Assembly (NCBI GenBank): GCA_026981655.1
Contig: JALSIJ010000250.1
Coordinates: forward strand, 1 to 39,870
Origin: Rhizobiaceae bacterium
GTDB taxonomy: Bacteria > Pseudomonadota > Alphaproteobacteria > Rhizobiales > Rhizobiaceae
DNA: 39,870 nt
Reading direction: 5' to 3'
The position numbers were made by a program, and so were the translations under genes. A model generated the notes under the pieces. The model saw only the letters and a list, made by a program, of their open reading frames with translations. It did not search any database and was not told where the DNA came from. This document shows positions 7,632 to 36,630 of the stretch, piece after piece. Within the stretch, counting starts at the first letter, position 1. Each line of letters begins with the position of its first letter.

Positions 7632-9521
7632 TCAGGTTGCGACAGTTTTCGCGCCATCCGGTGCAGGTTTTTCGAAACCATGCAAAACCTGCTGCGGATT
7701 TTCTTCAATTTGTTCTATTTCCTCCATTGTTCGGTGGCAGGAAATAAAGTGGTCCGGTGAAGGTTCGCGGGTAGGGGCTGTTTCGCGGTCGCAAGTACCG
7801 TCAATGGCAATCGGGCAACGGTTGTAAAACGGGCAACCGGTATCAGTAATTTCAACACCACGCGCAATGCCAACCGCCATTTCGCGTTTTTTCATGGTGT
7901 CCTCAAGCCAGCCAACCCGCAGTTCGGGCACAGATGAGATTAGCAATCTGGTATATGGGTGATAAGGCGGTGCAAGCACCTCGTCGACCGGACCTTGCTC
8001 CACCACACGGCCAGCATAGAGCACTACAATCTCATCGGCAAAAGAGCCGACGGTGGAAAGGTCGTGCGAAATAAACACAAATGAGACACCTGTTTTATCA
8101 CGCAGTTTTTTCAATAGTTTTATGACGTTCGAACTGACAATTGAATCAAGAGCTGAAGTAACTTCATCGCACAGCATGACCTCAGGGTTGGCTGCCAGCG
8201 CGCGCGCCATATTCACCCGCTGCTTTTGTCCGCCAGATAATTCTGAAGGGTATCGTGATTCAAAATCAGATGGCAGTTCCACCAGATCGAGCAGTTTGGC
8301 AACTTCTTCGCGCCGCTCCCGGCCTTTGATACCGCGATAAAATTCCAGCGGTCGGCCCAATATGTCGCCAATAACCTGGCGCGGGTTTAATGCCGTGTCA
8401 GCCATTTGATAAACGAATTGAATTTTTTGCAGTTCCTCCAGCGAGCGATCTTTTAATGAGCGCTCGAGCTTTTTGCCGTCAAGATATACTTCACCTTTCG
8501 CGGCAGGCAAAAGTCCGGCAATCACCCGGGCAAGCGTAGACTTTCCGCAGCCGGATTCGCCAATGACACCAACCACATGGGAGTTTTTGATTTTTACATT
8601 GATGTCACGCAATACGGTAATGGCCGGTTTGCCGTTGACGACGCCACCATACCCGGCGGTCATATTTTTAACTTCAATATTATATTCAACGCGGTCGTGT
8701 TGATCACTGAGCAATTCGCCCATACCTGCTTTTGGTGTGGGCTTTACCGCTGCCATCAGCCTTTTTGTATAAGGATGCTGCGGATTGTTGATAATCTGCT
8801 CGGTCGGCCCCTGTTCCTGTACTTCACCGGAATACAGCACCACAATATGATCGGCGACCTGCGCCACAACCGCCAAATCATGGGTCACATAAATTGCCGC
8901 CGAACCTTCTTCCTGAATGACCTTTTTAAAGGCTTTCAGCACTTCGATCTGGGTGGTCACATCAAGCGCTGTTGTCGGCTCGTCCAACACCAGCAGATCG
9001 GGCCGTGAAACCAGTGCCATCGCTGCCATTAGACGCTGCAATTGTCCGCCAGATACCTGGTGCGGATAGCGACGCCCAAGTCGTTCTGGGTCGGGCAGTT
9101 CCAGTGCGTGATAAAGTTCGATTGCGCGCTTGTCCGCTTCCTCCTGGGTCAGCGTTCCGTGCAATACGGCAGCCTCGGTAACCTGCTCGCCAATTGTAAT
9201 GGCCGGGTTAAACGTGGCGGCTGCACTTTGCGCCAGATAGGCAACTTTATTACCGCGCAATTCGCGTTGATCTTGCGGGTCCATCGACAATACATCTTCA
9301 CCATGCAGACGCACTTCACCACCGGGAAATTCCAGCCCCGGCCTGCAATAGGCCATTGTGGCCATTGAAATTGTAGATTTACCAGAGCCGGATTCGCCAA
9401 TTAACGCCACAACCTGACCGGCCTTAACTTTAAAGCTAACCCCTTTAACAATAGGGATGGGGGTGCCATCTTCCTTGCGAGCCTGTATCTGCAGATTATC
9501 AATTTCAAACAGTTCAGCCAT
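7632..9521 (-). CDS. Fused double ATPase of a peptide/nickel-type ABC transporter (DppD-DppF-like)
   Basis: A 629-residue protein with two complete ABC ATPase modules, equivalent to separate DppD and DppF fused in one chain. Module one has Walker [10 protein letters not shown] (residues 42-50), signature VSGGQLQR and Walker B LLVLDEP. Module two has Walker [10 protein letters not shown] (about 330), signature LSGGQKQR and a Walker B reading [11 protein letters not shown], with Val for the usual Pro. A C-terminal oligopeptide/dipeptide extension carries the Cys motif CPFYNRCP...C...C typical of the family. The enzyme would power uptake through the two permeases encoded immediately upstream. 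It is fourth in the order binding protein, permease, permease, ATPase. Substrate is unknown. Confidence 0.93.
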
Positions 9522-9579
9522 TAGGTGTTCTCTTCTTCCTGATCGTTTTTAGGCGCTTCACATTGGTCAAGGCGGGTAA

Positions 9580-10521
9580 CTACGAGATCATTTTCTTAGC
9601 CAGGTCACCACCAGATTCAGCCGAGACATCATCGACAATCAGATTGATTGCAATTGTAAACGAGGCAATTGCCAGAGCTGGCCAAATTGGTGCCAGAATC
9701 CCCCAACCTTCAGCAAATTGCATAGCCTCCAGATTGCCACGCACCATCGAGCCCCAGTCCGCATTTGGCGGTTGAATTCCAAGCCCCAGGAAACTGAGTG
9801 AGGAAATAAACAGCACCACAAATACCAGCCGCAAACCAAAATCCGTCGCCAATGGCATTGCCGCATTGGGCAATACTTCGCGGAAGATAATCCACCATAT
9901 GGTTTCACCGCGCGCCTGTGCAGATTCGACATAATCCATAACCATGATTTCCTGGCCATAGGCGCGGGCAATCCGGTAGACACTCGATGCATAAATAATG
10001 GCCGCCGTACCTATCAATATCGGGATTGATGAACCAAGTGCCACGACAATGAGCAGACCCAACATAATGGTTGGCAAAGAAAGTATTGCGTCATTGATAC
10101 GGCTGAGGATCATATCAGTCCATCCGCGTTTAACAGCTGCCGCAATACCGGCTGTCACGCCCATTAAATAGGCCAATAAAGTTGCAATAACCGAGATGCC
10201 GACAGTCATGCGCGCACCCCACAAGACACGGGAAAGTATGTCGCGTTCGTTTTTATCGGAACCAAGCCAGTGAGTGCCACCACCGTCAATTTCTGCTCCG
10301 GGCGGTAAATAGCTGTCCATATCAAGAATGGCCGCCTGATCGTAAGGGGCAATCCAAGGTCCTATCACAGCGATTACAATCCAGAATACAACGATTACCA
10401 CGCCGATCTTGCCGGTCCATGATAGTTTTAACCGCTTCTTCGGCGGTGCATCATGCAATTCGTCATAGATTGACATATCCTGATCGGTTTCAGCTTCTGC
10501 GCCTTGGGTAACGTCACTCAT
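9580..10521 (-). CDS. Peptide-type ABC transporter permease, DppC-like
   Basis: A 313-residue inner-membrane permease of the OppC/DppC type. It has a cytoplasmic N-terminus of about 30 residues, a first membrane span (IGVVIVVFWIVIAVIGPWIAPY), a periplasmic loop containing HWLGSDKNERDILSRVLWGAR (the usual 'LGTDxxGRDxxSRxxxGxR' motif of the family), and a core of further spans. The EAA-type coupling segment is around RGETIWWIIFREVLPNAAMP. The C-terminus reads IQPPNADWG...W, also typical. It starts 12 bp after the DppB-like gene, with AGGA before the ATG. It pairs with the DppB-like protein to form the translocation channel. Confidence 0.93.
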   Translation of the reverse strand: MSDVTQGAEAETDQDMSIYDELHDAPPKKRLKLSWTGKIGVVIVVFWIVIAVIGPWIAPYDQAAILDMDSYLPPGAEIDGGGTHWLGSDKNERDILSRVLWGARMTVGISVIATLLAYLMGVTAGIAAAVKRGWTDMILSRINDAILSLPTIMLGLLIVVALGSSIPILIGTAAIIYASSVYRIARAYGQEIMVMDYVESAQARGETIWWIIFREVLPNAAMPLATDFGLRLVFVVLFISSLSFLGLGIQPPNADWGSMVRGNLEAMQFAEGWGILAPIWPALAIASFTIAINLIVDDVSAESGGDLAKKMIS

Positions 10522-10533
10522 GGGTTTCAGTTC

Positions 10534-11481
10534 CTATTTTGGGTTGCGCAGTCTTGGATTTGCTAAAATTGCAGCCACATCGGCAAGAATAATCAGAACG
10601 ACATAGGTGGCACAAAAAATCATCGCACATGCCTGGACCAGTGGCAGGTCGCGGGTTTGCACCCCGTCAATCATCAGTTTTGCCAGGCCCGGATAGGCAA
10701 AGATTGTCTCAACAATGACTACGCCGGAAACCAGATAGGCGAGGTTCAGGGCGATCACATTGACGATTGGGCCGATGGTATTGAAAAATGCATGGCGCAA
10801 AATTATACGCTTGCGGCGAACCCCTTTGAGTATAGCCATTTCAATGTAAGGCGAATTCATCACGTTTAGAATGCCTGCGCGGGTCATTCTTATCATTTGG
10901 GCGGCGACAACGATGACCAAAACAAGCAAAGGCATCGCCATGCTCCGCCACCAGTCATAATAGCTTTGTTCCGCCGAAACACGGGCAATGGAGGGTAACC
11001 AGCCTAATTGTACGGCAAAAATCAGCACCATAAATGTCGCAATGAAAAATTCGGGAACTGAAATCAGGGCAAGCGTGCCAAAGGTCAGTGATTTATCGAT
11101 CCATGTGCCAGGATACATCGCGGCCATCAATCCAAGACCAACTGAAAGTGGAACAGAGATGAGGGCGACAATTCCGGCCATTACCATGGTGTTATAGAGA
11201 CGCTCACCAATAAGGCTGGAAATCGTTGCTCCACCGGCTTTCGATGTTCCCAAATCGCCGGTTAGCATATTGCCAAGCCAGCCAAAATACTGAAATATCA
11301 AAGGTTGGTCCAGCCCGCGCTCGGCCCGGTAAGCAGCTAGTGATTCCGGGGTTGCCGATTGGCCCAATACGATTTGCGCCACATCACCTGGAAGTGCGTT
11401 GGTCATGAGGAATACCAGTACGGAAACCACCCAAAGGGTAACGAACCCAATCAATATTCGTTGAATAACCATGCGTTGCAT
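10534..11481 (-). CDS. Peptide-type ABC transporter permease, DppB-like
   Basis: A 315-residue inner-membrane permease of the OppB/DppB type. The N-terminus MQRMVIQRILIGFVTLWVVS runs straight into the first span, followed by the family motif FLMTNALPGD and the LGLDQP-like sequence GLDQPLIFQYFGWLGNMLTGDLG. The coupling segment near GVRRKRIILRHAFFNTIGPI is the EAA-like loop. I chose the ATG at 11481 because GGGAGG lies nine bases upstream; the open frame reaches a TTG at 11508, and a further Met at 11472 is possible. A 270-bp space separates it from the binding-protein gene upstream on the same strand. Confidence 0.92.
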   Translation of the reverse strand: MQRMVIQRILIGFVTLWVVSVLVFLMTNALPGDVAQIVLGQSATPESLAAYRAERGLDQPLIFQYFGWLGNMLTGDLGTSKAGGATISSLIGERLYNTMVMAGIVALISVPLSVGLGLMAAMYPGTWIDKSLTFGTLALISVPEFFIATFMVLIFAVQLGWLPSIARVSAEQSYYDWWRSMAMPLLVLVIVVAAQMIRMTRAGILNVMNSPYIEMAILKGVRRKRIILRHAFFNTIGPIVNVIALNLAYLVSGVVIVETIFAYPGLAKLMIDGVQTRDLPLVQACAMIFCATYVVLIILADVAAILANPRLRNPK

Positions 11482-11711
11482 GTGGCCGTGCCTCCCAACA
11501 CTTCCCAAGGGCAGGCCCTTGATTTATTCTTTAGTGAGGCACCTATTTCTCGTTGCAAAATACCTGAAACCGAAACTCGAATTGTCTGATCAAGTATCTG
11601 TTATCGCGATATGTGCGAATTAAAAGATATTGCCGCCCGGTTCGCGCAGTCAGACAATTGCTCAATATAGTATTTTGAACTGGAGCGTGTCCGCCTGTAC
11701 GGAATTGTCGC

Positions 11712-11731
11712 TGGCCCAAAATCTTGGGCCA
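11712..11731 (-). promoter_or_regulatory. Intercistronic hairpin after the binding-protein gene
   Basis: TGGCCCAA-AATC-TTGGGCCA forms a perfect 8-bp stem with a 4-nt loop, 20 bases past the stop codon of the binding-protein gene and about 230 bases before the first permease gene. On the minus strand no T-run follows, so it is more likely a 3'-end stabiliser or processing hairpin than an intrinsic terminator. Such hairpins are known between binding-protein and permease genes of ABC operons, where they raise binding-protein levels. The rest of the 11482-11711 gap shows no gene. Confidence 0.6.
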
Positions 11732-11751
11732 ACGATATTTTTTGTTTCGAC

Positions 11752-13398
11752 TTAAACGTCTGTGCGCCAGGCAAATTCTGGCCATTCGTAACCACCGAGT
11801 GAACCCAGTGGCATACGACCGATGCCTTCAACTTTGTCAGACTTACCATCCACATAGTTACGATGCGCAGGAATGATCATGCCGCTACCTGGTGCATCAT
11901 CTGTTCCTTCAGCAATCAGCTTCTGCATTTCGCAATACATCTCATGCCGTTTGACTGGATCGGAAACACCACGAACTTCAGTTAGCATTCTGCCAAGCTT
12001 GTCGCTTTTCCACAATGTATCGTTCCAGGGAGCATCCGGTGCAAAGGCCAGATTCAGCATTACATTTGCAGTTGGGCGCATGTTCCATGTTACCACATTA
12101 AGTGGTGTTTTCATCCATACAGCCCCCCAATAACCATCATTTGGAACTTTCTTGATCTGCAAATCAAGTCCAATTTTTCCGGCTTCGCGCTGCATTAAAA
12201 GGCTGATATCGGTAATACCCGGTGCCACTTCAGCCACATTTAATTCAGCTGAAGTTATGCCTGATTTTTTCAGATGGAATTTGGCCTTGTCCAGATCATG
12301 TTCTTTTTGAACCATTTCCGAGCAATGGTCAGCGCCATAAGCAATGTTGATCGGATGATCATTGCCAACAGTACCCTGACCCTTGAGGATTGATTTTACG
12401 ATCTTTTTGCGGCGTTGAATATATTGCAGCGCTTTAACAAAGTCAGGATTGTTACCCGGAGCCGTATGGGTCATCGCGCAGATACCAAAATAGGCACCCG
12501 ATGGAACAGACCAGACACCAACACCGTCTGTTGATTCAACTTTTCTGATCGCTTTTGGATCAAGCGCCTGCATCAGATCAATGTCACCGGATAGGAATGC
12601 GCTGGTACGCGCCACCTTATCGGTAATTGCGGTGATTTCAATCTCATCCACATGCGCACCTTCGCGCCAGTAATGGGTGTTGCGCTCACCAATAGAACGT
12701 ACACCAGGTTTGAATTCTTTTAATCGGAACGGGCCAGTGCCATTGGCAGTCTGGAAATCTGTGGTGCCATCCTTGATTATCTTAAACTGCGGTGTGCCGA
12801 GAATCACCGGCAGGTCGCTATTCGGGCCAGACAGAATTGCTTTAACCGTATGGCTGTCAATTTTCTTCCACTCTTTAACATCAGCAACCAAAGGTTTGGC
12901 GGTTGAAGTGGATTTTTCGCCATAGTGACGGGACATCGTGTAAACCACATCATCTGCGGTGAAGTCGCTGCCATCGTGGAACTTAACACCCTTGCGGAGT
13001 TTAAATGTCCATTCTGTATTGTCAGAATTGGCTGAATATTCTTCAGCAAGTTCTGGCCGTGTCGAAAGGTCATCGTTGATCTGGCAGAGGCTGTTATAGA
13101 AAGAACGACCGCGGGAATAATCAATGGTTGACGTGTTCAAGCCAGGATCAAGCGTATCGTTGGGACCGTGTAGATCGGATGCAAAGGTAATTTTACCGCC
13201 TTTTTTCGGTGTCATCGCCAAAGCTTGTGTTGCTGAAGTAACAATTGAACCAGCGCCAGCGATGGTGGCTCCTGCGGCAACCAGCCAACCCATAACTTCG
13301 CGCCGGGTTGCGCCGCGTTTCAAGCCTGTTTGGATAGTTTGTTGATCTGTAACTGAAAGATTTTCAATTGTGGGCAAGTCGCCCGTTGGATTTTTCAT
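11752..13398 (-). CDS. Tat-exported extracellular solute-binding protein, family 5
   Basis: A 548-residue binding protein of the peptide/nickel family (SBP family 5), the receptor for the permease/ATPase genes downstream. The N-terminus carries a twin-arginine signal, TRREVMGWLVAAGATIAGAG (about residues 31-50), with cleavage probably after ATQALA near 63. The mature part has family motifs such as LDPGLNTSTIDYS, a WTFKLRKGVKFHDGSDFTADDVVYT segment split across about 130-155, and a TGPFRLKEFKPG segment. The start at 13398 has an ideal GGGAGG seven bases upstream; the open frame continues 136 codons further into the divergent LysR gene, which I reject as coding. A LysR gene is divergent at 103 bp and is the likely regulator. 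Substrate class is not readable: peptide, opine or other small molecules are possible. Confidence 0.93.
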   Translation of the reverse strand: MKNPTGDLPTIENLSVTDQQTIQTGLKRGATRREVMGWLVAAGATIAGAGSIVTSATQALAMTPKKGGKITFASDLHGPNDTLDPGLNTSTIDYSRGRSFYNSLCQINDDLSTRPELAEEYSANSDNTEWTFKLRKGVKFHDGSDFTADDVVYTMSRHYGEKSTSTAKPLVADVKEWKKIDSHTVKAILSGPNSDLPVILGTPQFKIIKDGTTDFQTANGTGPFRLKEFKPGVRSIGERNTHYWREGAHVDEIEITAITDKVARTSAFLSGDIDLMQALDPKAIRKVESTDGVGVWSVPSGAYFGICAMTHTAPGNNPDFVKALQYIQRRKKIVKSILKGQGTVGNDHPINIAYGADHCSEMVQKEHDLDKAKFHLKKSGITSAELNVAEVAPGITDISLLMQREAGKIGLDLQIKKVPNDGYWGAVWMKTPLNVVTWNMRPTANVMLNLAFAPDAPWNDTLWKSDKLGRMLTEVRGVSDPVKRHEMYCEMQKLIAEGTDDAPGSGMIIPAHRNYVDGKSDKVEGIGRMPLGSLGGYEWPEFAWRTDV

Positions 13399-13458
13399 GG
13401 TGATTCCTCCCTTTTGTTTATTCTTGAAAAGAGTTTCGCGTTGTTGCGCTGCAATTGG

Positions 13459-13483
13459 AACTGTAATAATACTTATATCAGTT
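13459..13483. promoter_or_regulatory. Possible LysR operator in the divergent spacer
   Basis: The 103-bp spacer between the binding-protein and LysR genes contains an inverted repeat AACTG-N15-CAGTT. LysR-type regulators often bind such interrupted dyads in divergent spacers. The arms are only five bases, so chance occurrence is quite possible. A TATAAT at 13483-13488 overlaps the right arm, but no -35 partner at the right distance is visible. Confidence 0.3.
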
Positions 13484-13501
13484 ATAATCTGAGGTAATAT
13501 T

Positions 13502-14443
13502 ATGCTTAGGCGCCAACTGCCATCTACCAATTCGTTATTCTCGTTCGAAGTTGTTGCAAGGCTTGGCAGTTTTTCAGATGCCGCGCGTGAACTGAACGTA
13601 ACCCAACCAGCCGTTTCGCGATCTATAAGCGAATTGGAGGGACATCTTGGGTATTCCTTGTTCAAGCGCCACGGGCGATGGATTGATCTTACCCCCAATG
13701 GCGACAAGCTATATCGGGCAACCTCGCTGGCATTTGGCACGATTATCGAATCCCTGCGCGACATCGAACAGCAACAGGAAAGTCGGGAAACCGTTACTAT
13801 ATCCATGTCGGCCGGGTCGGTTGATCATTGGTTTATCCCCAGAATGGCCGAATTTAAGGAGAAGTTTCCTGAGGTGAATTTGAGTTTTGAGGCTTTTGTT
13901 CGTGATGATGATGACCGACTGACTAATTTTGATCTGGCGATCAGATTATCCAGCCCGCAACATGCAGATATGCATCGCTGGCCGTTTTCAGACGAAAAGA
14001 TACTGGCGCTTTGTTCGCCCGCTTATCTGGATAAATACGGCTCTCTTGACCAACCCGTACCGGGAAAGCCTCATACCTTGATCGAGTTATTGGACCAAAG
14101 GTATTCTCTGGATGAGTATTTTCATGCCACCGGCCAGCAAACGCCAGAAGGTGCAAAGGTTGTGAAGTTTTCAGACTATTCGAGCATAATACAAGCGGCA
14201 ATTCAGGGGCAGGGGGTTGCGCTCGCCTGGATCACGGAAGCATCCCGCCAAATCATTGATGGCAACCTTCTTCTGGCCTGCACTCAGGTGGTAAAAACCG
14301 GGCGCAGATACCATATTCTTGCATCCAATCTCACCCCAATGCGGCCAATTGTCGAAGATATACGCGATTGGCTGATTAATGAGATGCGTAATGACCAGCG
14401 GAAAATCTCGACAATCCTCAAAGCCAACTGGGATCTGTATTGA
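13502..14443 (+). CDS. LysR-type transcriptional regulator, GcvA-like
   Basis: A 313-residue LysR-family regulator. The N-terminal winged helix-turn-helix is clear: LFSFEVVARLGSFSDAARE followed by LNVTQPAVSRSISELEGHLG, residues about 12-50. The remainder is the LysR substrate domain with strands around VTISMSAGSVDHWFIPRM (about 97-115) and FDLAIRLS (about 140-148), the pattern seen in GcvA-like members. A GAGG seven bases before the ATG supports the start. It is divergent from the peptide-type ABC transporter operon, so regulation of that operon is the natural inference. It ends 13 bp from the 3' end of the convergent GlxA/GbdR-like gene. Confidence 0.92.
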   Translation: MLRRQLPSTNSLFSFEVVARLGSFSDAARELNVTQPAVSRSISELEGHLGYSLFKRHGRWIDLTPNGDKLYRATSLAFGTIIESLRDIEQQQESRETVTISMSAGSVDHWFIPRMAEFKEKFPEVNLSFEAFVRDDDDRLTNFDLAIRLSSPQHADMHRWPFSDEKILALCSPAYLDKYGSLDQPVPGKPHTLIELLDQRYSLDEYFHATGQQTPEGAKVVKFSDYSSIIQAAIQGQGVALAWITEASRQIIDGNLLLACTQVVKTGRRYHILASNLTPMRPIVEDIRDWLINEMRNDQRKISTILKANWDLY

Positions 14444-14456: not shown

Positions 14457-15461
14457 TCATATCTCACCCAGGTTCCGATCATTGGAAGGGGGCGAATTAA
14501 ACCGTTCCTTATAACAGCGCGAGAAATAGGATTGTGATGAAAACCCGGTCGCGACGGCAACTTCCAGCAATGAAATACCCGAATGAAATATCAGGTGCCG
14601 CGCCCGTTCGAGCCTGAGGTTGAGATAATAACGATGAAGGGTCTTTTGCCTGTGTTTTTGAAACAGCCGTTCAAGCTGGCGTAAAGAGATACCCACATGA
14701 TTGGCAATTTCTGGCGAAGTTTTGGTGTCTTCAATATGCATCATCATGAATTCGATTGCGGACGCAAGTTTAGCAGACCTCCGGCGCGCCTGGGTTATTT
14801 CCACATTCCGCTGAAAGTCACCCGGAGTGCGTAAATGATCATAGACAAATTGTTCCGCGACGGCGGCTGCCAGACCTTCTCCTTCCGTTCGTGAAATCCA
14901 GTTCAGCATCAAATCGAGTGAGGCAATTCCACCCGCAGCGGTAATCCGGTTGCGGTCAATTTCGTAAATCCCGCCGGTTAGCAGGGCTTTTGGGTGGTTC
15001 TCGCGAAAACTCTCGTCGTTTTCCCAATGGATTGTGCAGCGCGTTCCGTCCAAAAGCCCCGCATTGGCAAGGATCTCACTTCCTGTACTTATGGCCCCAA
15101 GCGTACATCCGCCACGCGCTAGCTTTCGAAGCCAGTCCAACAACAGTTTGGAATTGCTTTGTTCTGCATCAAAAAAGCCCGCACAAATAATTACCAGATC
15201 AAACTTGACCAGTTTTTGCTGGATTGAGAAATGCGTGGAAATTTCAATTCCATTGCTGGCAAAAACCGGATTTCCATTTTCAGAAAGCAAGTGCCAATTA
15301 AATATTTTTCTATCTGCCAAACGGTTGGCAGAACGCAGTGGCTCAACCGCAGCACTAAACCCCATCATGGCAAATTCGGGGATCAGTAAAAAACCGACTT
15401 CCAGCGTTGGCTTTGCGGAGATTGAAGGTTTGCCGGTTGCGTTCATTTCAATGCCCGTCAT
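14457..15461 (-). CDS. GlxA/GbdR-like AraC-family transcriptional regulator
   Basis: A 334-residue regulator with an N-terminal DJ-1/PfpI-like (glutamine amidotransferase class-1-like) sensor domain and a C-terminal AraC helix-turn-helix domain. The sensor begins VGFLLIPEFAMMGFSAAVEPLRSANRLADR (about 22-51). The AraC domain covers about 230-330, with SLRQLERLFQKHRQKTLHRYYLNLRLERARHLIF split over the two helix-turn-helix units and the closing GFSSQSYFSRCYKERFN. This architecture is that of GbdR, the Pseudomonas activator of glycine betaine and dimethylglycine catabolism. The divergent neighbour is a dimethylglycine dehydrogenase-like gene, so a GbdR-type role is likely but untested. No good ribosome binding site precedes the first Met; Met6 is an alternative start. 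Confidence 0.88.
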   Translation of the reverse strand: MTGIEMNATGKPSISAKPTLEVGFLLIPEFAMMGFSAAVEPLRSANRLADRKIFNWHLLSENGNPVFASNGIEISTHFSIQQKLVKFDLVIICAGFFDAEQSNSKLLLDWLRKLARGGCTLGAISTGSEILANAGLLDGTRCTIHWENDESFRENHPKALLTGGIYEIDRNRITAAGGIASLDLMLNWISRTEGEGLAAAVAEQFVYDHLRTPGDFQRNVEITQARRRSAKLASAIEFMMMHIEDTKTSPEIANHVGISLRQLERLFQKHRQKTLHRYYLNLRLERARHLIFHSGISLLEVAVATGFSSQSYFSRCYKERFNSPPSNDRNLGEI

Positions 15462-15527
15462 TTTGAATTAAAACTGATTTAAACCTCAATGGCGAAAAAA
15501 TAGCAATAACTGTCGAATATATGCAAC

Positions 15528-15545
15528 TGCCACTTCGAGTGCCAC
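15528..15545. promoter_or_regulatory. TGCCAC direct repeat, possible AraC-type operator
   Basis: TGCCAC occurs at 15528-15533 and 15540-15545, 12 bp apart, in the 119-bp spacer between the GlxA/GbdR-like regulator and the flavoprotein gene. The downstream copy ends 35 bp before the flavoprotein start. AraC-family regulators bind direct repeats, which makes this a candidate half-site pair. The spacing of about one helical turn is shorter than in many AraC systems. Confidence 0.35.
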
Positions 15546-15580
15546 ACCATGATCGACGTATATTTGATCGGGAGAAACAA

Positions 15581-18010
15581 ATGAAATCGCAGGCCAAAGT
15601 GGTTGTAATCGGCGGGGGAGTAGTCGGCTGTTCGGTGCTTTATCATTTGGCAAAGCTGGGTTGGAGCGATGTGGTTTTGCTCGAGCGTGATGAACTGACT
15701 TCAGGTTCCACCTGGCATGCGGCCGGCGGAATGCACACAATTAACGGCGACCCCAATATCGCCAAGCTGCAGAAGTACACGATTGATTTGTATAAAGAAA
15801 TTCAGGAAATTTCCGGGCAGGATGCGGGCGTGCACATTACCGGTGGGGTGATGTTGGCGGCAAGCGAAGCAAGGCTTGACTGGTTAAAGGGCCTCGTTGC
15901 CAAAGGGGCATATCTTGATATTGATGCCCAAATTATCTCGCCGGAAGAAGCCAAGAGCTTCATGCCTTTGATTGATCCGTCCAAATTTGTCGGAGCCATG
16001 AAAACCAGCGTCGATGGTCACCTCGACCCATCTGGCGTTACCCATGCCTTTGCCCAATCGGCGCGCAAGCTTGGCGCGGAAATCGAGCGCTTTACCAAGG
16101 TCGAAAGCCTGTCACAAATGCCAGACGGTGCCTGGCGGGTAACCACAAACAAAGGCGACATTATTGCCGAGCACGTGGTCAATGCGGGCGGATTATGGGC
16201 CCGCGAAGTTGGCCGCATGGCAGGGCTTGAACTGCCCGTATTGGCAATGGAGCACATGTACCTGCTGACTGAAGATATGCCTGAAGTGGCGGAATGGAAC
16301 GAAAAAACCGGCAAGGAAATAATTCATGCGGTAGATTTCGACGGAGAATTATATCTTCGTCAGGAGCGCGGCGGGATGTTGATGGGGACCTATGAAAAGG
16401 CAGGCAAACCCTGGTCTCCGCACACAACGCCGTGGGATTTCGGCCATGAATTGCTCGAGCCGGATATTGACCGAATTGCCGCCTCGCTGGAAGTGGGTTT
16501 TGAACATTTTCCGGCTTTTAAGAATGTTGGTATCAAGCAGATAATCAATGGCCCGTTTACTTTTGCACCTGACGGAAATCCGCTGATTGGCCCGGTTCGT
16601 GGACTGCCAAACTACTGGTGTGCCTGCGGTGTGATGGCCGGGTTTTCACAAGGCGGTGGCGTTGGCCTGGCGCTTGCTAACTGGATGATTGAAAATGATC
16701 CGGGAATGGACGTCTGGGCGATGGATGTGGCGCGCTTTGGTGACTGGGCAACACCTGAATATACCTCGCTCAAGGTTCAGGAAAACTATTCACGACGGTT
16801 TTCCATCCGCTATCCAAATGAAGAGTTGCCAGCCGCTCGTCCGCTTAAAACAACACCGATATATGAGCGCCTGAAAGCCAGCGGAGCACAGTTTTCGGCA
16901 GCATATGGTCTCGAGGCGGCTCTTTGGTTTGCGCCTGCTGGCGTTGTTGATGAGTTCTCCTGGTATCGCTCTACAGATTTTGACCATGTGGGCGCGGAAG
17001 CAAAGGCAGTACGTAATTCCGTCGGGCTTACGGAAATATCGGGCTTTGCAAATTACACGATTTCAGGCGAGGGCGCGGAAGCCTGGTTGGACAAAATTCT
17101 TGCCTGCAAGATGCCGCAACCCGGCCGCATGACCCTTGCCCCGATGCTTAAACATGACGGAGGGGTCATTGGAGATTTCACCCTAGCTAACCTGGGCGGC
17201 GGCAGATGGTTCATTGCAGGGTCAGGTGTTGCTGAAGATTTTCATATGCGATGGTTCGAAACTCATTTGCCGAGTGATAATTCAGTGCAAATAACGGCGC
17301 ATGGTGCCGGAATGGTTGGCCTTTCCATTGCCGGACCCAATGCCCGCAAAGTCTTGCAGGCGATCACATATCATGATGTTTCTGCCGAAGCGTTTAAATT
17401 TATGGATATTGGTGAAATTTTCATCGGTATGGCGAAGGTGCTTGTTGGCAGGGTAAGCTATACCGGCGATCTTGGTTTTGAGCTTTGGTGTAAACCAGAA
17501 TATCAGTGCCATCTCTTTGATTTGCTGATGTCAGCGGGCAAAGACTTTGACATCAGGTTATTTGGAACCAGAGCCTTGAACTCACTGCGGCTTGAGAAAA
17601 ATTATGGCAGCTGGGCGAGGGAATATCGCCCGATCTACAGCCCTGAAGAATGTGGTTTGTCGTGGTTTGTATGCCGCGATAAAGCAGCCGATTTTATCGG
17701 CAAAAAAGCCTCTACGGAACTTTATGACAACAACATCGCAGATATGCATTTGAGAACCTTTGTCGTTGATGCAAACAATTCAGACCCCATTGGTGATGAG
17801 CCAATTTATTTCGATGGTAAAGCGGTTGGCTGGGTAACCTCCGGTGGCTATGCACACGCTTCCGGCGTTTCTGTTGCAATGGGCTATGTGCCGCGTGAAC
17901 TGGCGCCCGAACCGGAGGGTTGGGAAATTGAAATTCTTGGCGAACGTCGATCCGCAAAACTTCAATTTAAACCACTCTTTGACCCTGACGGGGTAAGGAT
18001 GAGAGGATAA
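15581..18010 (+). CDS. Dimethylglycine/sarcosine dehydrogenase-like flavoprotein (DAO + GcvT domains)
   Basis: An 809-residue two-domain flavoprotein. The N-terminal FAD-binding oxidoreductase domain (about 1-390) begins with the dinucleotide fold VVVIGGGVVGCSVLYHLAKLG and contains GSTWHAAGG, where His is the residue that covalently holds FAD in dimethylglycine and sarcosine dehydrogenases. The C-terminal part (about 430-800) is a GcvT-like folate-binding aminomethyltransferase domain. Known family members demethylate dimethylglycine or sarcosine and pass the C1 unit to tetrahydrofolate. The start at 15581 is supported by GGGAG just upstream; the frame is open from 15521. Regulator divergent upstream, MttB-like methyltransferase four bases downstream: together they suggest stepwise demethylation of betaine-type compounds. 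Exact substrate is inferred. Confidence 0.9.
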   Translation: MKSQAKVVVIGGGVVGCSVLYHLAKLGWSDVVLLERDELTSGSTWHAAGGMHTINGDPNIAKLQKYTIDLYKEIQEISGQDAGVHITGGVMLAASEARLDWLKGLVAKGAYLDIDAQIISPEEAKSFMPLIDPSKFVGAMKTSVDGHLDPSGVTHAFAQSARKLGAEIERFTKVESLSQMPDGAWRVTTNKGDIIAEHVVNAGGLWAREVGRMAGLELPVLAMEHMYLLTEDMPEVAEWNEKTGKEIIHAVDFDGELYLRQERGGMLMGTYEKAGKPWSPHTTPWDFGHELLEPDIDRIAASLEVGFEHFPAFKNVGIKQIINGPFTFAPDGNPLIGPVRGLPNYWCACGVMAGFSQGGGVGLALANWMIENDPGMDVWAMDVARFGDWATPEYTSLKVQENYSRRFSIRYPNEELPAARPLKTTPIYERLKASGAQFSAAYGLEAALWFAPAGVVDEFSWYRSTDFDHVGAEAKAVRNSVGLTEISGFANYTISGEGAEAWLDKILACKMPQPGRMTLAPMLKHDGGVIGDFTLANLGGGRWFIAGSGVAEDFHMRWFETHLPSDNSVQITAHGAGMVGLSIAGPNARKVLQAITYHDVSAEAFKFMDIGEIFIGMAKVLVGRVSYTGDLGFELWCKPEYQCHLFDLLMSAGKDFDIRLFGTRALNSLRLEKNYGSWAREYRPIYSPEECGLSWFVCRDKAADFIGKKASTELYDNNIADMHLRTFVVDANNSDPIGDEPIYFDGKAVGWVTSGGYAHASGVSVAMGYVPRELAPEPEGWEIEILGERRSAKLQFKPLFDPDGVRMRG

Positions 18011-18014
18011 TCCA

Positions 18015-19574
18015 ATGGCTCGCGAACAGGGTTCAGCAAGAAAACAACGCCGAAGACGGGCCAAGGGGGGTAATGTTGCCGCAGGTCAGGCAATCGAGCA
18101 AATGCCCTGGCATCAGCCCGAATTGAGCTTTCCACCGCAGGAATTATTGAACGAAGAGCAAATTGATATCATTCATATTGCCTCGCTAAAAATCTTAAAA
18201 GAAATTGGCATGGAATTCATGTCTGCTGATGCGCGAGATCGTCTGAAAAAAGCCGGTGCAGATGTCAACGAAGAGACACATATGGTGCGGTTTGATCCCT
18301 CATTGGTCGAGGAACTCATCAAAACAGCCCCTTCGATTTTCACATTGCATGCGCGCAATCCGCAGAAAAATCTCAAAATCGGCGGGCGTTATATCGTCAA
18401 TGGCTGCGTTTCCAGCCCGCCCAATGTTTCCTGTATGGATAAGGGGCGGCGGCCCGGCAATATTGAAGACTTCCAAAATCTGCTGCGGCTTTCGCAATAT
18501 TTCAACATCATTCATTTAATCGGCGGCTACCCGGTTGAACCTTTGGATCGGGCCGTTTCAACCCGACATTTATATAACACGAGAGACATGCTGACGCTGA
18601 CCGACAAGGCAATCTCAGTCTATTGTATTTGGGGGCAAAGAGTATCCGATGCAATAGAGATGGCCCGGATTGGACGCGGTATCAGCAACGAGCAACTTGA
18701 ACAGGAACCGTCCTGCTTTTCAGTCATCAACACCAATTCTCCGTTAAAATTTGACGAGATGATGCTGGATGGGCTGATTGAAATGTCCTCGCGAAATCAG
18801 GTGATTTGCGTCACCCCCTTTACCCTGGCAGGAGCGATGGCTCCAATCACCCTTGCGGGCGCCCTTGCTCAACAAAACGCCGAAGCGCTTGCCGGGCTGG
18901 TCATGACCCAGATTGTCCGTCCGGGCGCACCATTTGTTTATGGCGGATTTACTTCAAATGTGGATATGAAATCTGGCGCGCCGGCATTTGGCACGCCGGA
19001 ATATATGAAAACCTCAATTATTGGTGGTCAGCTGGCGCGCCGTTATAAGGTTCCCTACCGCACTTCGGGGGTGAATGCGGCCAATACGGTTGATGCGCAG
19101 GCGGCGTATGAGTCTGTGTTTTCGCTTTGGGGCGCCACGATGGGTGGCGGCAATGTAATCAAGCATGCGGCTGGCTGGATGGAAGGCGGGCTGGTTGCGT
19201 CTTACGAGAAACTGGTTCTGGATGTTGATCTGCTGCAAATGGTGTCAGAATTTTTAAAGCCGGTTATTGTTGATGACAGTACATTGGGTTTTGAATCCAT
19301 CATTGAGGCGGGTGTCGGCGGGCATTTTTTTGGCACCACCCATACCCAGGAGCGGTACCGCAATGCGTTTTATGCACCACTGATTTCAGATTGGCGCAAT
19401 TATGAAAGCTGGGAGGGAGCCGGCAGTCCGCGTGCCTGGCAGAAAGCCAACCAACTCTGGAAAAAGGCTCTGAAAGACTACCAGGAGCCACCGATTGATT
19501 TGGCAGTTACCGAAGAGCTTGATCGCCATATTGCGGCAATTGAAGAAACCGGTGGGATTGGTACTGACTTTTGA
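18015..19574 (+). CDS. MttB-family methyltransferase without pyrrolysine
   Basis: A 519-residue member of the trimethylamine methyltransferase (MttB) superfamily, an alpha/beta barrel that transfers a methyl group from a quaternary or tertiary amine to a corrinoid protein. The frame is uninterrupted, with no in-frame amber codon, so it belongs to the large non-pyrrolysine branch, characterised members of which (for example MtgB) act on glycine betaine or related betaines. Visible family features are the early LKILKEIGMEFMS segment, the CVSSPPNVSCMDKGRRPG loop, the TPFTLAGAMAPITLAGALAQQNAEALAG core (about 270-297) and the C-terminal HTQERYRNAFYAPLISD. A basic N-terminal tail (KQRRRRAKGG) precedes the barrel. 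GAGG overlapping the preceding stop supports translation straight after the flavoprotein gene. No corrinoid-protein gene is nearby. Confidence 0.9.
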   Translation: MAREQGSARKQRRRRAKGGNVAAGQAIEQMPWHQPELSFPPQELLNEEQIDIIHIASLKILKEIGMEFMSADARDRLKKAGADVNEETHMVRFDPSLVEELIKTAPSIFTLHARNPQKNLKIGGRYIVNGCVSSPPNVSCMDKGRRPGNIEDFQNLLRLSQYFNIIHLIGGYPVEPLDRAVSTRHLYNTRDMLTLTDKAISVYCIWGQRVSDAIEMARIGRGISNEQLEQEPSCFSVINTNSPLKFDEMMLDGLIEMSSRNQVICVTPFTLAGAMAPITLAGALAQQNAEALAGLVMTQIVRPGAPFVYGGFTSNVDMKSGAPAFGTPEYMKTSIIGGQLARRYKVPYRTSGVNAANTVDAQAAYESVFSLWGATMGGGNVIKHAAGWMEGGLVASYEKLVLDVDLLQMVSEFLKPVIVDDSTLGFESIIEAGVGGHFFGTTHTQERYRNAFYAPLISDWRNYESWEGAGSPRAWQKANQLWKKALKDYQEPPIDLAVTEELDRHIAAIEETGGIGTDF

Positions 19575-25859: not shown

Positions 25860-26123
25860 AACGATAAACTCCCTGCGTGGCAGGGCAAGCACCGGTCGAA
25901 GCCGGTGTGCCAGTGCGTGAGCGGACGATGGCCTGGAGGGGCCCGCGTAAAACAAAAAAACGATGCGCAAGATTTGAAACACAAATATTTCCAATGTGAT
26001 CGAGTGCACGTGTAGAATTGGAAAGCAGGCCTATTTTCAGGTTGTTACTTCAGTTCGACACAATGCCCCAAGTGTCGATTGAAATTTACCGCCCGGCAGC
26101 GACCCTTTGCCGGGCGGTTTTCT
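25860..26123 (+). ncRNA. Structured gene-free block, candidate small RNA or long 3' UTR
   Basis: No credible reading frame lies in 25861-26121. Four stem-loops follow each other: CCCTGC-GTG-GCAGGG (25871-25885), CACCGG-TCGAAG-CCGGTG (25890-25907), TCGACAC-N10-GTGTCGA (26055-26078) and the terminator at 26088-26118. This could be an independent small RNA ending at the terminator, or the untranslated tail of the RND transcript. I recognise no known RNA family and see no clear promoter, so the call is tentative. Confidence 0.35.
26088..26122 (+). terminator. Strong intrinsic terminator
   Basis: ACCGCCCGGCA at 26088-26098 and TGCCGGGCGGT at 26108-26118 form a perfect 11-bp GC-rich stem with a nine-base loop, followed by TTTTCT on the plus strand. 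This is a textbook rho-independent terminator for plus-strand transcription, 370 bases after the RND pump stop and directly before the 3' end of cbbR on the opposite strand. Confidence 0.85.
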
Positions 26124-27078
26124 ATTGTATGGAAATCGAAATCTTGTTTTTTGTCTGTGCGGGAATCTGGGGTAAAAAATCTTTACCCTGATTGAGCATG
26201 AATTCATAGAATTTGATTGCAGCCGGCATCATGCGTTTGTCATGCTGGCGAACCACAAACCATTGGCGAATGCGTGGCAGACCAATAACGTCCAGCGCGA
26301 TCAGCAACCCGTCCTGCAATTCGCGAGAAACGGCATGGGCAGACAGGAAAGAGATGCCAAGGCCCGCCATAACCGATTGCTTTATGGTTTCATTGCTCCA
26401 GACCTCCATGCCAAATGTATTTTCGCCTATCGGAATTCCAAGTTCGGCAAACATAGACTCGAGCAATAATCGGGTGCCTGATCCGTATTCCCGTATCAAT
26501 ATGTTCTCGTTGAGCAGCCTATTGAGCGTGATATTTCGTTCGTCTTTCAAAGAATGATCCGGCGGGGCGATAACAATATGGGGGTGGTCGCCAATTATGG
26601 TTCGATTTATACCCTGTTCTTCAGGCGGGCGGCCCATAATTGCGCAGTCCACTTTGTAATCATCAATTGCCTCAACTATTTCCCGGCGGTTGCCAACAAT
26701 AAGATTTACATCCACATCCGGGTTTTGCCGGGCAAATTCAGCGATCGCCTTGGGAGCAAAATATTTTGCGGTGCTTACTACGCCAACGGTGACATTTCCG
26801 CGTGCTCCTAAACTAATGCCGTCAATTGCAGCGCTGCACTCGGCCAGTGCAGAGTTTATTCGCGATGCTGCCGCCAAAACTTCGACCCCGGCCTGCGTCA
26901 GTCGGAAGGTTTTGCCGCTGCGGTTTATAAGCGGCAAGCCCACTTCTTCTTCTAATATTCGCAATTGGGTGGTGATTGCAGGCGGTGTTACATGCAACAA
27001 TGCCGCAGCTTTGGTAACGGATTTGGTTCGGACCAGCATACTAAAGGCCCGTAATTGCTTAAGAGTTAGGTTTTTCAT
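26122..27078 (-). CDS. cbbR: LysR-type regulator CbbR
   Basis: A 318-residue LysR-family regulator assigned as CbbR by sequence and position. The N-terminal helix-turn-helix reads LTLKQLRAFSMLVRTKS then VTKAAALLHVTPPAITTQLRILEEEVGLPL (about 4-50), with the TPPA variant in the recognition region that I recall as typical of CbbR. The effector domain starts around GNVTVGVVSTAKYFAPKAI and includes the IREYGSGTR loop also usual in CbbR proteins. CbbR activates cbb operons in response to metabolites such as RuBP, PEP or NADPH in studied species. The ATG at 27078 is preferred over the in-frame GTG at 27084; neither has a strong ribosome binding site. It is divergent from cbbF across about 150 bp, the standard arrangement. 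Confidence 0.93.
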   Translation of the reverse strand: MKNLTLKQLRAFSMLVRTKSVTKAAALLHVTPPAITTQLRILEEEVGLPLINRSGKTFRLTQAGVEVLAAASRINSALAECSAAIDGISLGARGNVTVGVVSTAKYFAPKAIAEFARQNPDVDVNLIVGNRREIVEAIDDYKVDCAIMGRPPEEQGINRTIIGDHPHIVIAPPDHSLKDERNITLNRLLNENILIREYGSGTRLLLESMFAELGIPIGENTFGMEVWSNETIKQSVMAGLGISFLSAHAVSRELQDGLLIALDVIGLPRIRQWFVVRQHDKRMMPAAIKFYEFMLNQGKDFLPQIPAQTKNKISISIQ

Positions 27079-27153
27079 AATCACACATTAAATTATATTT
27101 ATTCACAATTCAAATTAATTAAATTTACTTTTTATTCATGTATTCGCATATAA

Positions 27154-27180
27154 CGCCCAACGATTTAGAATCTGAGGGCG
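27154..27180. promoter_or_regulatory. Symmetric dyad in the cbbR-cbbF spacer
   Basis: CGCCC-aac-GATT-tag-AATC-tga-GGGCG is a 27-bp nested dyad centred at 27167, about 60 bp upstream of the cbbF start. It could be an operator for CbbR or another regulator, or a 5' leader hairpin if transcription starts upstream. It is not an obvious copy of the published CbbR motif. The AT-rich stretch at 27090-27150 beside it holds several LysR-type T-N11-A possibilities that I cannot rank. Confidence 0.45.
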
Positions 27181-27226
27181 TCTATATCAGCCTGTCAGGT
27201 CGCATAATTCAGGCAGGATATGCATA

Positions 27227-28261
27227 ATGACTGAAGGTCAATCTTTAGGCGAATTTCTTGACGCATTGGACAAGACCTCCTCGGCAGTTCCGGGCTTGAG
27301 CGGCGCTCTTATGGCAATTGCTGAAGGTTCAATGACGCTGGAAACCGTTATTTCCAGCCCGGAAGGTGCAGGGCAGGCGGATATCGTTGGGGAGAATACC
27401 GATGGAGACCAACAAAAAGCTCTTGATATTCAGGCCCACGAAATTTTTCTGGAAGCGCTAAAAGATACATCAATTGGCATTATTGCTTCCGAGGAAGCCG
27501 AGCATACAATTTCAATGGGCAATGATGGAAACCTGGCCCTGGCGATGGACCCGCTTGATGGGTCATCCAATATCGAAACCAATGCGCCAATTGGAACGAT
27601 TTTTTCAATTCTACCGATAAATGCAGCAAGTCCGGAAACGTCATTCTTTAAGAGTGGCGATGATGTTATTGCTGCAGGTTTTGTTGCCTATGGTCCGCGC
27701 ACTCAACTTTATCTGACCGTTGGTTCCGGTACTCAGATTTTCATTCTTGACCGTAAATCGAAAGAATTTGTCCTGTTCAAAAAGAACGTACAAATTTCGT
27801 CAGACACCAGAGAATATGCCATCAACATGTCGAATTTTCAGCATTGGTATGCGCCGGTCCGTCAATATATTGACGATTGCATTGAGGGTGAGGGCGGTAT
27901 TCGCGGCAAAAGCTTTAACATGCGCTGGATTGCATCGCTGGTTGCTGATGCATCCCGAATTTTCGCACGCGGCGGAATTTTTCTTTATCCCGGTGACGAT
28001 CGTAAGGGATATGAAAACGGTCGCCTGCGTTTGGTCTATGAAGCTGTGCCACTTGCCATGTTGATTGAGCAGGCCGGTGGCGCCGCATCAACCGGTTCGC
28101 TGCGGGTGTTGGATGTTGTGCCAAGTGACATCCATGAGCGCGTGCCGCTGGTTTTCGGCTCAAACAACGAAGTCAATATTGTTGAACACCTCCATCATTC
28201 TCCAAGCGTACAAAAAAACACGTCTCCACTATTTGGCGATCGTGGTCTGTTTCGCGCCTAG
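27227..28261 (+). CDS. cbbF: Class I fructose-1,6-bisphosphatase
   Basis: A 344-residue class I fructose-1,6-bisphosphatase; in Calvin cycle operons it may also hydrolyse sedoheptulose-1,7-bisphosphate. Metal and phosphate motifs are intact: SEEAEH (Glu pair near residue 90) and DPLDGSSNIETN beginning at Asp108, plus the IRGKSFNMRWIASLVADASRIFARGG region that contains the sugar-phosphate ligands (split over about 225-250). The C-terminal GAASTG...DVVPSDIHERVPLVFGS is standard. AGGA precedes the ATG by eight bases. It is the first gene of the operon, 26 bp before cbbP, and is expected to be controlled by the divergent cbbR. Confidence 0.96.
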   Translation: MTEGQSLGEFLDALDKTSSAVPGLSGALMAIAEGSMTLETVISSPEGAGQADIVGENTDGDQQKALDIQAHEIFLEALKDTSIGIIASEEAEHTISMGNDGNLALAMDPLDGSSNIETNAPIGTIFSILPINAASPETSFFKSGDDVIAAGFVAYGPRTQLYLTVGSGTQIFILDRKSKEFVLFKKNVQISSDTREYAINMSNFQHWYAPVRQYIDDCIEGEGGIRGKSFNMRWIASLVADASRIFARGGIFLYPGDDRKGYENGRLRLVYEAVPLAMLIEQAGGAASTGSLRVLDVVPSDIHERVPLVFGSNNEVNIVEHLHHSPSVQKNTSPLFGDRGLFRA

Positions 28262-28287
28262 TCGTGCTTTTATAAAGGTTGCCTTAA

Positions 28288-29166
28288 ATGTCAGTCAAAC
28301 ACCCAATTATTTCGATTACCGGTTCTTCAGGAGCAGGCACATCTTCGGTCAAGCAAACATTTGACCAGATTTTCCGCCGCGAAGGCTTTACCGCCGCTTC
28401 GATCGAAGGGGATGCGTTTCACTATTACAATCGCGCCGACATGAAAAAGGAAATGGCCGCACAGGAAGCCAAGGGAAACAAACATTTCAGCCATTTTGGC
28501 CCGGATGCAAACCTCTTGTCCGAGCTTGCAAACACCTTCAAAACCTATGGCGAAACCGGCAATGGACTTACCCGTCATTATATTCATGATGAAGAAGAGG
28601 CGGAGAAATATGGCAAAGCACCAGGCGAATTCACCGACTGGGAACAATTCCCGGATGACACGGACCTGCTATTCTATGAAGGGCTGCACGGCTCGATCGT
28701 TCATGGCGGAATTAATGTCGCGGAACATGCGGATTTGAGAGTTGGCGTCGTACCTGTGATCAATCTTGAGTGGATCCAAAAAATTCACCGTGACCGGGCC
28801 GAGCGTGGCTATTCCACCGAAGCTGTTATGGATGTGATTTTGCGCCGCATGCCCGATTATACCCGCTATATCGTTCCGCAATTTGCCCATACCAACATCA
28901 ACTTTCAGCGCGTACCGATTGTCGATACATCTGATCCGTTTATTGCACGCTGGATACCGACAGCGGATGAATCGATGGTGGTTATTCGTTTTGCCAAACC
29001 GCAGGGAATTGATTTCCCCTATCTGCTTTCAGTGATCCACGACAGTTTCATGTCCAGGGCCAACTCGATTGTGGTCCCCGGCGGCAAAATGGAACTCGCC
29101 ATGCAACTGATTTTCACACCCATGATTCAACAATTAATGGACAAGAAGCGCCGCACGGGTGGCTAA
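28288..29166 (+). CDS. cbbP: Phosphoribulokinase
   Basis: A 292-residue class I (bacterial, octameric-type) phosphoribulokinase, which makes ribulose-1,5-bisphosphate for RuBisCO. The P-loop is GSSGAGTSS (residues 12-20). Further family motifs are the GDAFHYYNRADMK segment (about 41-53), with the substrate-binding Tyr/Arg, the HYIHDEEEAEKYG loop, and FYEGLHGSIVHGGINVAEHADLRVGVVP with the Walker B-type Glu (about 130-157). The enzyme is specific to the Calvin cycle, so with cbbLS it is the best evidence for autotrophic capacity. It lies between cbbF and cbbT with short spacers. Confidence 0.97.
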   Translation: MSVKHPIISITGSSGAGTSSVKQTFDQIFRREGFTAASIEGDAFHYYNRADMKKEMAAQEAKGNKHFSHFGPDANLLSELANTFKTYGETGNGLTRHYIHDEEEAEKYGKAPGEFTDWEQFPDDTDLLFYEGLHGSIVHGGINVAEHADLRVGVVPVINLEWIQKIHRDRAERGYSTEAVMDVILRRMPDYTRYIVPQFAHTNINFQRVPIVDTSDPFIARWIPTADESMVVIRFAKPQGIDFPYLLSVIHDSFMSRANSIVVPGGKMELAMQLIFTPMIQQLMDKKRRTGG

Positions 29167-29211
29167 CCCCCGGGTATCACCTTTGTTTAATTTCTTGTCA
29201 GGAGCCTTTCA

Positions 29212-31197: not shown

Positions 31198-31245
31198 GCA
31201 ATCTGGAATTTGAACAAATAACCCGCTGAAATAAGGATTTTAAAA

Positions 31246-32253
31246 TTGACAACACGCGTAGCAATTAACGGATTTGGCCGTATCGGACGTAACATATTAC
31301 GGGCAATCATTGAATCTGGTCGTACAGACATCGAGGTTGTTGGCATCAACGATCTTGGTCCGGTTGAAACCAATGCCCACCTTTTGCGTTTTGACAGTGT
31401 TCATGGCCGCTTTCCGGCAACCGTAACGGTTGATGGCGATACAATCGACGTTGGTCGAGGTCCAATCAAGGTAACCGCCATTCGCGATCCTAAAGAATTG
31501 CCTTGGGGTGAGTTGAATGTCGACATTGCAATGGAATGTACCGGTATATTTACCGCACGAGATAAAGCTGCAATGCATCTTGAGGCCGGTGCCAAGCGGG
31601 TGCTTATTTCGGCTCCCGGTGCAAATGCGGATCAAACGATCGTTTATGGCGTAAACGACAATGTTCTGACCGCTGCTGATACGGTCGTATCCAACGCATC
31701 CTGCACAACCAACTGCCTGTCGCCGGTAGCCTACGTCCTCAATAAAGCAATGGGCATAGAACGTGGCATCATGACCACCATACACTCCTATACGGGTGAC
31801 CAGCCAACACTGGATACAATGCATTCCGACATGTATCGCGGTCGCGCAGCTGCAATATCGATGATCCCGACATCAACCGGTGCAGCAAAAGCTGTTGGTC
31901 TCGTTTTGCCAGAACTGAATGGCAAGCTCGACGGTTCCGCTATCCGCGTCCCGACCCCGAATGTTTCGGTTGTTGATCTTAAATTCGTATCGTCAAAACC
32001 AACTACGGTTGAAGAAGTCAACAATGCGATTATCGCCGCAGCTGACGGCCCGTTGAAAGGTGTGCTTGGCTATACAAGCGTGCCGAATGTTTCCATCGAC
32101 TTCAACCATGATAGCCATTCATCCGTCTTCGCTTTGGATCAAACCAAGGTTATGGATGGCGGACTGGTGCGGATTTTGACCTGGTATGACAATGAATGGG
32201 GCTTTTCCAGCCGCATGTCAGACACAGCAATTGCAATGGGCAAACTGATATGA
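31246..32253 (+). CDS. cbbG: Glyceraldehyde-3-phosphate dehydrogenase
   Basis: A 335-residue phosphorylating GAPDH. The N-terminus [15 protein letters not shown] is the dinucleotide fold, and the active-site Cys is residue 153 in SNASCTTNC, with the catalytic His in [14 protein letters not shown] follows the second strand, so an Asp sits where NAD-specific enzymes have it; cofactor preference cannot be decided by eye. The only fitting start is TTG, with AAGGA eight bases upstream and no ATG nearby upstream. The stop overlaps the pgk start by four bases (ATGA). In this operon it would reduce 1,3-bisphosphoglycerate from the following gene's product. Confidence 0.95.
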
Positions 32254-34546: not shown

Positions 34547-34570
34547 ATTGAGGCCTTGTTTATAAAATCG

Positions 34571-34615
34571 CCATGCATCCAAAAAGTGGGAACCGGTTTT
34601 TGGATAAGTGCATGG
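34571..34615. repeat. 45-nt palindromic REP-like element before cbbL
   Basis: CCATGCA + TCCAAAAA (34571-34585) pairs with TTTTTGGA (34597-34604) and TGCATGG (34609-34615): 15 base pairs, with a one-sided TAAG bulge and an 11-nt loop GTGGGAACCGG. From memory, the core AAAAAGTGGGAACCGGTTTT recurs in intergenic regions of many Rhizobiales genomes; I could not search. Here it sits inside the operon between cbbA and cbbL, so in the transcript it would be a strong hairpin. No T-run follows on the plus strand, so complete termination is not expected. Confidence 0.85.
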
Positions 34616-34681
34616 ACAGAAAAGAATTGCTCAACAAACCATCCGGTTCGGTGAATTGGGTATAATTGGAAGGAATATCAA

Positions 34682-36118: not shown

Positions 36119-36124
36119 TCGCAA

Positions 36125-36178: not shown

Positions 36179-36207
36179 GCCAGAAAAGTAATACAAGGAT
36201 ACATATT

Positions 36208-36567: not shown

Positions 36568-36574
36568 CTAAATT

Positions 36575-36599: not shown

Positions 36600-36630
36600 T
36601 TCAATTCTAAAATTTGCGAGTTGATCCCTT

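Follow-up and report, generated by a model that had tools for sequence, protein, structure and literature searches.

The MttB-superfamily methyltransferase operon found in the stretch of Rhizobiaceae DNA analyzed here (39,870 nucleotides; the window) is most likely an ordinary member, a substrate-specific arm, of the known and recently described MtgBCDE-type system, and the corrinoid protein that it lacks is very probably (roughly 88%) supplied in trans by the MtgC encoded elsewhere in the same genome. We base this reading on the presence of a sole MtgC, on contig C143; on the match of the gene set to MtgBCDE; on the co-occurrence of MttB relatives with MtgC; and on the position of the gene pair inside mtg clusters of relatives (L042 and G099). 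Where several MttB paralogues share one MtgC, an MttB operon without a corrinoid gene of its own is to be expected; the apparent puzzle of such an operon is largely closed, and new methyl-transfer chemistry is not needed to explain it. Gene content, domains, clustering and co-occurrence were computed here, and the need for mtgC and mtgD is taken from work on Ruegeria pomeroyi.

Domains and coordinates confirmed the preliminary description of the module, in which a GlxA/GbdR-like regulator, a dimethylglycine dehydrogenase (DMGDH)-like flavoprotein and a non-pyrrolysine MttB are adjacent (Table 1), the last two in one operon; the flavoprotein stop and the MttB start are 4 bases apart on the same strand, and the pairing recurs in relatives. 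A Pfam search assigned DJ-1/PfpI and HTH_18 domains to the regulator, whose top NCBIfam model is the GbdR equivalog NF052371; at 320.7 bits, under the cut-off of 480, it is GbdR-like only. The flavoprotein carries DAO, FAO_M, GCV_T and GCV_T_C domains (Pfam search), and its top solved relatives are the dimethylglycine dehydrogenases 5l46 and 4p9s (563 and 558 bits), which we take to be the human and rat enzymes. It aligns with the mammalian enzyme almost end to end, the two having in common a GSTWHAAG stretch whose histidine is presumably the flavin-linking histidine of dimethylglycine dehydrogenase; unlike those enzymes, it is bacterial and stands in an operon with MttB. By sequence, then, it has both the FAD oxidoreductase/GcvT fusion and the GSTWHAAG stretch by which a dimethylglycine dehydrogenase is recognized, and it may have that activity. 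The ATG at 15581, preceded by GGGAGA, is a likelier start for this protein than 15521. The window MttB scores 633.6 bits against the MTTB model (PF06253; cut-off 25) over residues 12-509. Its 519-aa open frame has no in-frame amber codon, and the Pyl334 site of 7xcl aligns near V353. Its top solved relatives are 4yyc (a putative trimethylamine methyltransferase, presumably a Sinorhizobium meliloti protein; 358.7 bits), MtgB of Desulfitobacterium hafniense (DhMtgB, 2qne; 295 bits over residues 39-507, nearly the whole length) and 9yce, a glycine betaine methyltransferase.

Table 1. Features of the module and its surroundings, in window coordinates
Feature	Position	Strand	Basis or remark
Peptide-type ABC transporter: fused ATPase, two permeases, SBP_bac_5 binding protein	7632..13806	-	Domains; permeases by eye
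LysR regulator	13502..14443	+	Syntenic with the module in L009, L012 and L135
GbdR-like regulator (DJ-1/PfpI domain and AraC-type HTH)	14457..15461	-	Domain and NCBIfam search
19-base block between regulator and flavoprotein, AATGGCGNAAAAATNGCAA-like; possible operator	15488..15506	+	Conserved in L012 and L135
Dimethylglycine-dehydrogenase-like flavoprotein fused to GcvT domains	15521..18010	+	Domains, structure relatives
Non-pyrrolysine MttB-superfamily methyltransferase (window clade, MttBw)	18015..19574	+	MTTB domain, tree

The genome to which the window belongs (3.43 Mb, 273 contigs, 96.4% complete) contains three MttB paralogues and one corrinoid protein. Profile searches with PF02607 and PF02310 at E values up to 0.1 found no corrinoid domain in the window and one match to each profile in the whole genome, both in mtgC on C143; "without a corrinoid protein," as the module had been described, thus holds for the window and fails for the genome. 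The protein in question is a stand-alone, MtgC-like protein of 233 aa (C143:14409-15107) with both domains, and its top NCBIfam model is MtgC_2 (219 bits, below the cut-off of 370). Its gene is divergent from that of MttB paralogue 1 (MttB1), and it adjoins a DUF1638 gene, with MtgE and a choline-dehydrogenase-like enzyme also close by. MtgE is a homocysteine S-methyltransferase (L007 5120-6145; betaine-homocysteine methyltransferase in NCBIfam) that scores 483.5 bits against PRK07534, above the cut-off of 338. On contig C11 lies a RamA-like protein (RACo_C_ter, 297.8 bits; it does not reach the AcsV or RamA cut-off of NCBIfam), adjoined by a second GbdR-like regulator, which shares 39% identity with that of the window over 314 aa. 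The suggestion that the corrinoid partner is encoded elsewhere is supported: other contigs encode MtgC, MtgE, DUF1638, the RamA-like protein and the beginning of metF2, the gene behind which a congener carries mtgD. As for the MtgC/MtgA-type proteins for which a genome search had been advised, that search yielded the one MtgC-like protein on C143 and, on the methyltransferase side, a sole Pterin_bind match that we judged to be FolP from its score (262.8 bits) and sequence. A classical MetH that could act as acceptor module was not found either, the genome's PF02607 and PF02310 matches both being in mtgC and its Pterin_bind match being FolP. Coregulation of the corrinoid gene with the window operon, also raised earlier, is suggested by the GbdR-like genes at both loci, but a shared operator was not found: ungapped matching of the window operon against mtgC or gbdR2, with 20 shuffles each, gave nothing above chance. 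The 19-base block of Table 1 is possibly an operator; it is present with 2 mismatches in L012 and L135 and absent upstream of mtgC and at the matching place in L017.

With its single Pterin_bind match assigned to FolP, the assembled genome has no MtgD. All three congeners (3/3) encode MtgD-type Pterin_bind proteins (~102 bits), and that of G053 exceeds the NCBIfam cut-off for methyl-THF:corrinoid methyltransferase. The gene order in G053 is MttB1/mtgC, DUF1638, GMC, metF2, mtgD, ramA, gbdR2, and C143 aligns to this cluster up to its own end, which falls inside metF2, the gene directly before mtgD in G053. Because C143 stops there, mtgD comes next in the congener and all three congeners have it, mtgD most likely sits in an assembly gap. 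Loss of mtgD from the lineage was also considered; we think it unlikely given the metF2 gene cut by the contig end and the presence of mtgD in every congener. On C11 the RamA-like gene is not preceded by mtgD as in the congener but by another reading frame, so gene order there departs from the congener's; this frame (its 3' end at L091 6219-6728) has no Pfam match.

The gene set agrees with the MtgBCDE system of Ruegeria pomeroyi DSS-3 and the split methionine synthase of Phaeobacter inhibens in having one MtgC, several pfam06253 proteins, MtgE, a RamA-like protein, DUF1638 and metF2; MetH was not found, and the genes lie over several contigs (PMC12478193). It differs in that our assembly is without mtgD (a probable contig break) and perhaps in that the clade of the window MttB is without Tyr94. 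That paper reports that MtgC and MtgD of R. pomeroyi are required for methionine synthesis and glycine betaine catabolism, the mtgC and mtgD mutants losing growth on betaine and needing methionine; that two pfam06253 proteins are up on betaine, along with RamA, DUF1638 and MetF2; and that the mtg genes of this organism are less clustered than those of many other genomes (Mausz et al. 2025, PMC12478193). It also describes genomes in which mtgC and mtgD are accompanied by as many as seven pfam06253 genes, for which a role in feeding further methylated compounds into the same route is suggested, and cites gut MttB paralogues that act on different quaternary amines (PMC12478193). D. hafniense, by comparison, is an anaerobe with MtgA and MtgC.

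From these comparisons, we infer a route in which the window MttB, paired with the C143 MtgC, would transfer one methyl group from a carboxylated quaternary amine, its presumed substrate, to the cob(I)alamin of that sole corrinoid protein. The methyl group would then flow from MtgC to tetrahydrofolate via MtgD, with MetF2 oxidizing the resulting methyl-THF, or, as an alternative outlet, to homocysteine via MtgE; RamA and DUF1638 would hold the cobalt reduced. The DMGDH/GcvT flavoprotein would oxidatively take the next methyl group off the leftover tertiary amine and pass it on as methylene-THF. Tetrahydrofolate had been named as a C1 sink in the preliminary description, and MtgD and MetF2 in the congener and the GcvT domain of the flavoprotein fit that proposal.

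The phylogeny of the window MttB and its predicted pocket bear on which amine enters this route. A FastTree analysis of 136 sequences puts the window MttB in a clade of 99 (support, 0.98), and 15 MttB1 sequences form a separate clade (support, 0.998) together with 4yyc, which is the top solved relative of the window MttB yet groups with MttB1. Judging from record titles among the loci listed, the window clade spans Alpha-, Beta-, and Gammaproteobacteria; no characterized member of it was found in the literature. In a docking study of DhMtgB, the residues that hold betaine are predicted to be Y94, N199, R309 and H345, with Y94 as a cation-pi residue from docking only (PMC6855144). The equivalents of N199, R309 and H345 in the window MttB are N239, R349 and H384 (DhMtgB numbering taken from the alignment with 9yce, which runs one higher); they are kept in 99/99 members of the clade and, apart from one X, throughout the MttB1 clade. 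The equivalent of Y94 is Ser133, and across the clade this position is Ala in 63, Ser in 18 and Gly in 18 of the 99 sequences and Tyr in none, as against Tyr in 15/15 MttB1 sequences, 4yyc and 2qne. F353 of DhMtgB is replaced by Gly in the window MttB, and likewise in MttB1 and 4yyc.

The window MttB could be a second glycine betaine methyltransferase that draws on the shared MtgC and, with MttB1, makes dimethylglycine for the adjacent DMGDH to oxidize, and we give this version of events just under an even chance. It would account for a flavoprotein that is nearest to true DMGDH among solved structures, for the GbdR-like regulator and for the retention of the predicted carboxylate residues, and it would agree with the two pfam06253 proteins of R. 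pomeroyi that are up on betaine (PMC12478193); the replacement of Tyr94 by Ala, Ser or Gly in all 99 members of the clade, against its presence in every MttB1, argues the other way, as does the peptide-type transporter, whose synteny with the module is conserved in the loci of three relatives (L009, L012 and L135). Loss of Y94 together with the peptide-type ABC transporter adjoining the operon makes it plausible that the window MttB acts on a substrate other than glycine betaine; the argument is a weak one because the pocket residues are taken from a docking model (PMC6855144). The corresponding proposal, that the window clade feeds a methyl group from a different carboxylated quaternary amine (e.g., proline betaine, carnitine or a methylated amino acid) into the shared MtgC and that the DMGDH-like enzyme takes the demethylated product and completes demethylation, is tentative, its odds falling somewhat short of even. 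A separate, well-supported clade that has lost the pocket Tyr and kept N, R and H would fit such a substrate, and so would an importer of peptide type beside the module and the MttB paralogues of gut bacteria, each with its own quaternary amine, that Mausz et al. cite (PMC12478193). Against it, Tyr94 owes its assigned role to docking, and both the GbdR-like regulator and the DMGDH partner speak for catabolism of glycine betaine. If the proposal is true, the clade would be a separate entry point to aerobic B12-dependent methyl catabolism, and the substrate of its altered predicted pocket could extend the list of osmolytes that aerobes demethylate with vitamin B12.

The transporter itself possibly imports the substrate of the module. 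The true start of its open reading frame at 11752-13806 is probably later than annotated, and weaker relatives of the transporter lie near MttB in L019 and L129.

MttB relatives and MtgC tend to occur together. A search of 61 related genomes at E ≤ 1e-60, a cut that takes in both the window clade and MttB1, gave an MttB relative in 32, and MtgC is present in 32/32 of these versus 2/29 of the others. Of the 32 MtgC matches, 31 are nearly full length with at least 79% identity; the match in G054, a 63-residue piece (86%), was probably truncated where its contig stops. A window-type MttB (at least 53% identity) is found in 17 related genomes, our own and, by a contig-edge fragment, G102 included, and MtgC accompanies it in 17/17; in 6/17 (G090, G104, G099, G068, G060 and G083) it lies at most 18 kb from mtgC. 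Class-wide, 36 of 241 genomes including our own match MttB at E ≤ 1e-130, the other 35 all (35/35) have MtgC at 76-85% identity, and MtgC was found in 1/20 of the nonmatching genomes searched (20 of 205). Fisher tests of the association, which ignore kinship, gave 2.6e-15 for the related set and 7.1e-14 class-wide. The genome sets overlap, with the same MtgC place in G001 and G053 and likewise in G025 and G312, and one stop was counted inside the MtgC match in five genomes (G056 in the related set; G187, G268, G298 and G334 class-wide). Among 50 named genomes with a window-type MttB, which are part of the 80 listed and whose records give no completeness, 43 have MtgC at 65% identity or more; it is missing at that threshold from G009, G012, G016, G018, G023, G032 and G036, three of which are without a PF02607 match.

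Gene neighborhoods were compared for the 80 MttB loci listed. A flavoprotein homologue (at least 50% identity) is present in 35 of them and directly adjacent to MttB on the same strand in 29; it is absent from 23 whose flanks reach 3 kb or more on each side and from a further 22 with short flanks. MtgC lies within the fetched flanks in 11 of the 80, and mtgC or mtgD in only 2 of the 35 with the flavoprotein. L042 holds the window-type MttB, DMGDH, MtgE, MttB1, MtgC, DUF1638, MetF2, MtgD and RamA in one locus. Close-up neighborhoods, selected rather than random and mostly from genomes with MttB and MtgC on one contig, place the window-type pair between RamA-MtgD-MetF2 and MtgE, MttB1 and MtgC in G099; place the MttB/flavoprotein pair ~15-18 kb from mtgC in G068, G060 and G083; and place a window-type MttB without the flavoprotein ~5 kb from mtgC in G104 and G090. 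GcvT binds folate, and a corrinoid-free reaction, in which the window MttB would pass the methyl directly to tetrahydrofolate in its partner's GcvT domain and the pair alone would demethylate a quaternary amine, could draw on this, on the direct adjacency of the pair, on the rarity of mtgC and mtgD beside it and on the seven named genomes without a clear MtgC; but with MtgC in every genome of the related and class-wide sets that has an MttB relative, the pair enclosed by mtg genes in L042 and G099, and 23 well-flanked loci whose MttB has no adjoining flavoprotein, we reject this chemistry, and with it the other methyl acceptor once proposed for this MttB branch, as highly improbable.

The third MttB paralogue belongs to a clade of 20 sequences in which all four predicted betaine residues are absent, so it may act on a substrate that is not a carboxylated betaine. 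It is encoded on contig C259 (L008 7052-14360) in an operon with two DMGDH/GcvT-like flavoproteins and a 277-aa protein that, on visual inspection, resembles the PEP mutase/isocitrate lyase family and has no NCBIfam match at E ≤ 1e-20. Relatives of this paralogue divergently adjoin the window-type MttB in 21 of the 80 listed loci. Two nearby window-type MttB copies are found in each of L023, L025, L029, L043, L049, L057, L063 and L064, and in all eight the second copy has GG at two pocket positions where the window MttB has SS, which hints at further substrate splitting. The window also contains, at 26122-39798, a Calvin-cycle operon with genes for a LysR regulator, FBPase, phosphoribulokinase, transketolase, GAPDH, PGK, class II aldolase, the RuBisCO large subunit, a CbbQ-type AAA protein and a 776-aa VWA protein; the host may couple methyl oxidation to CO2 fixation.
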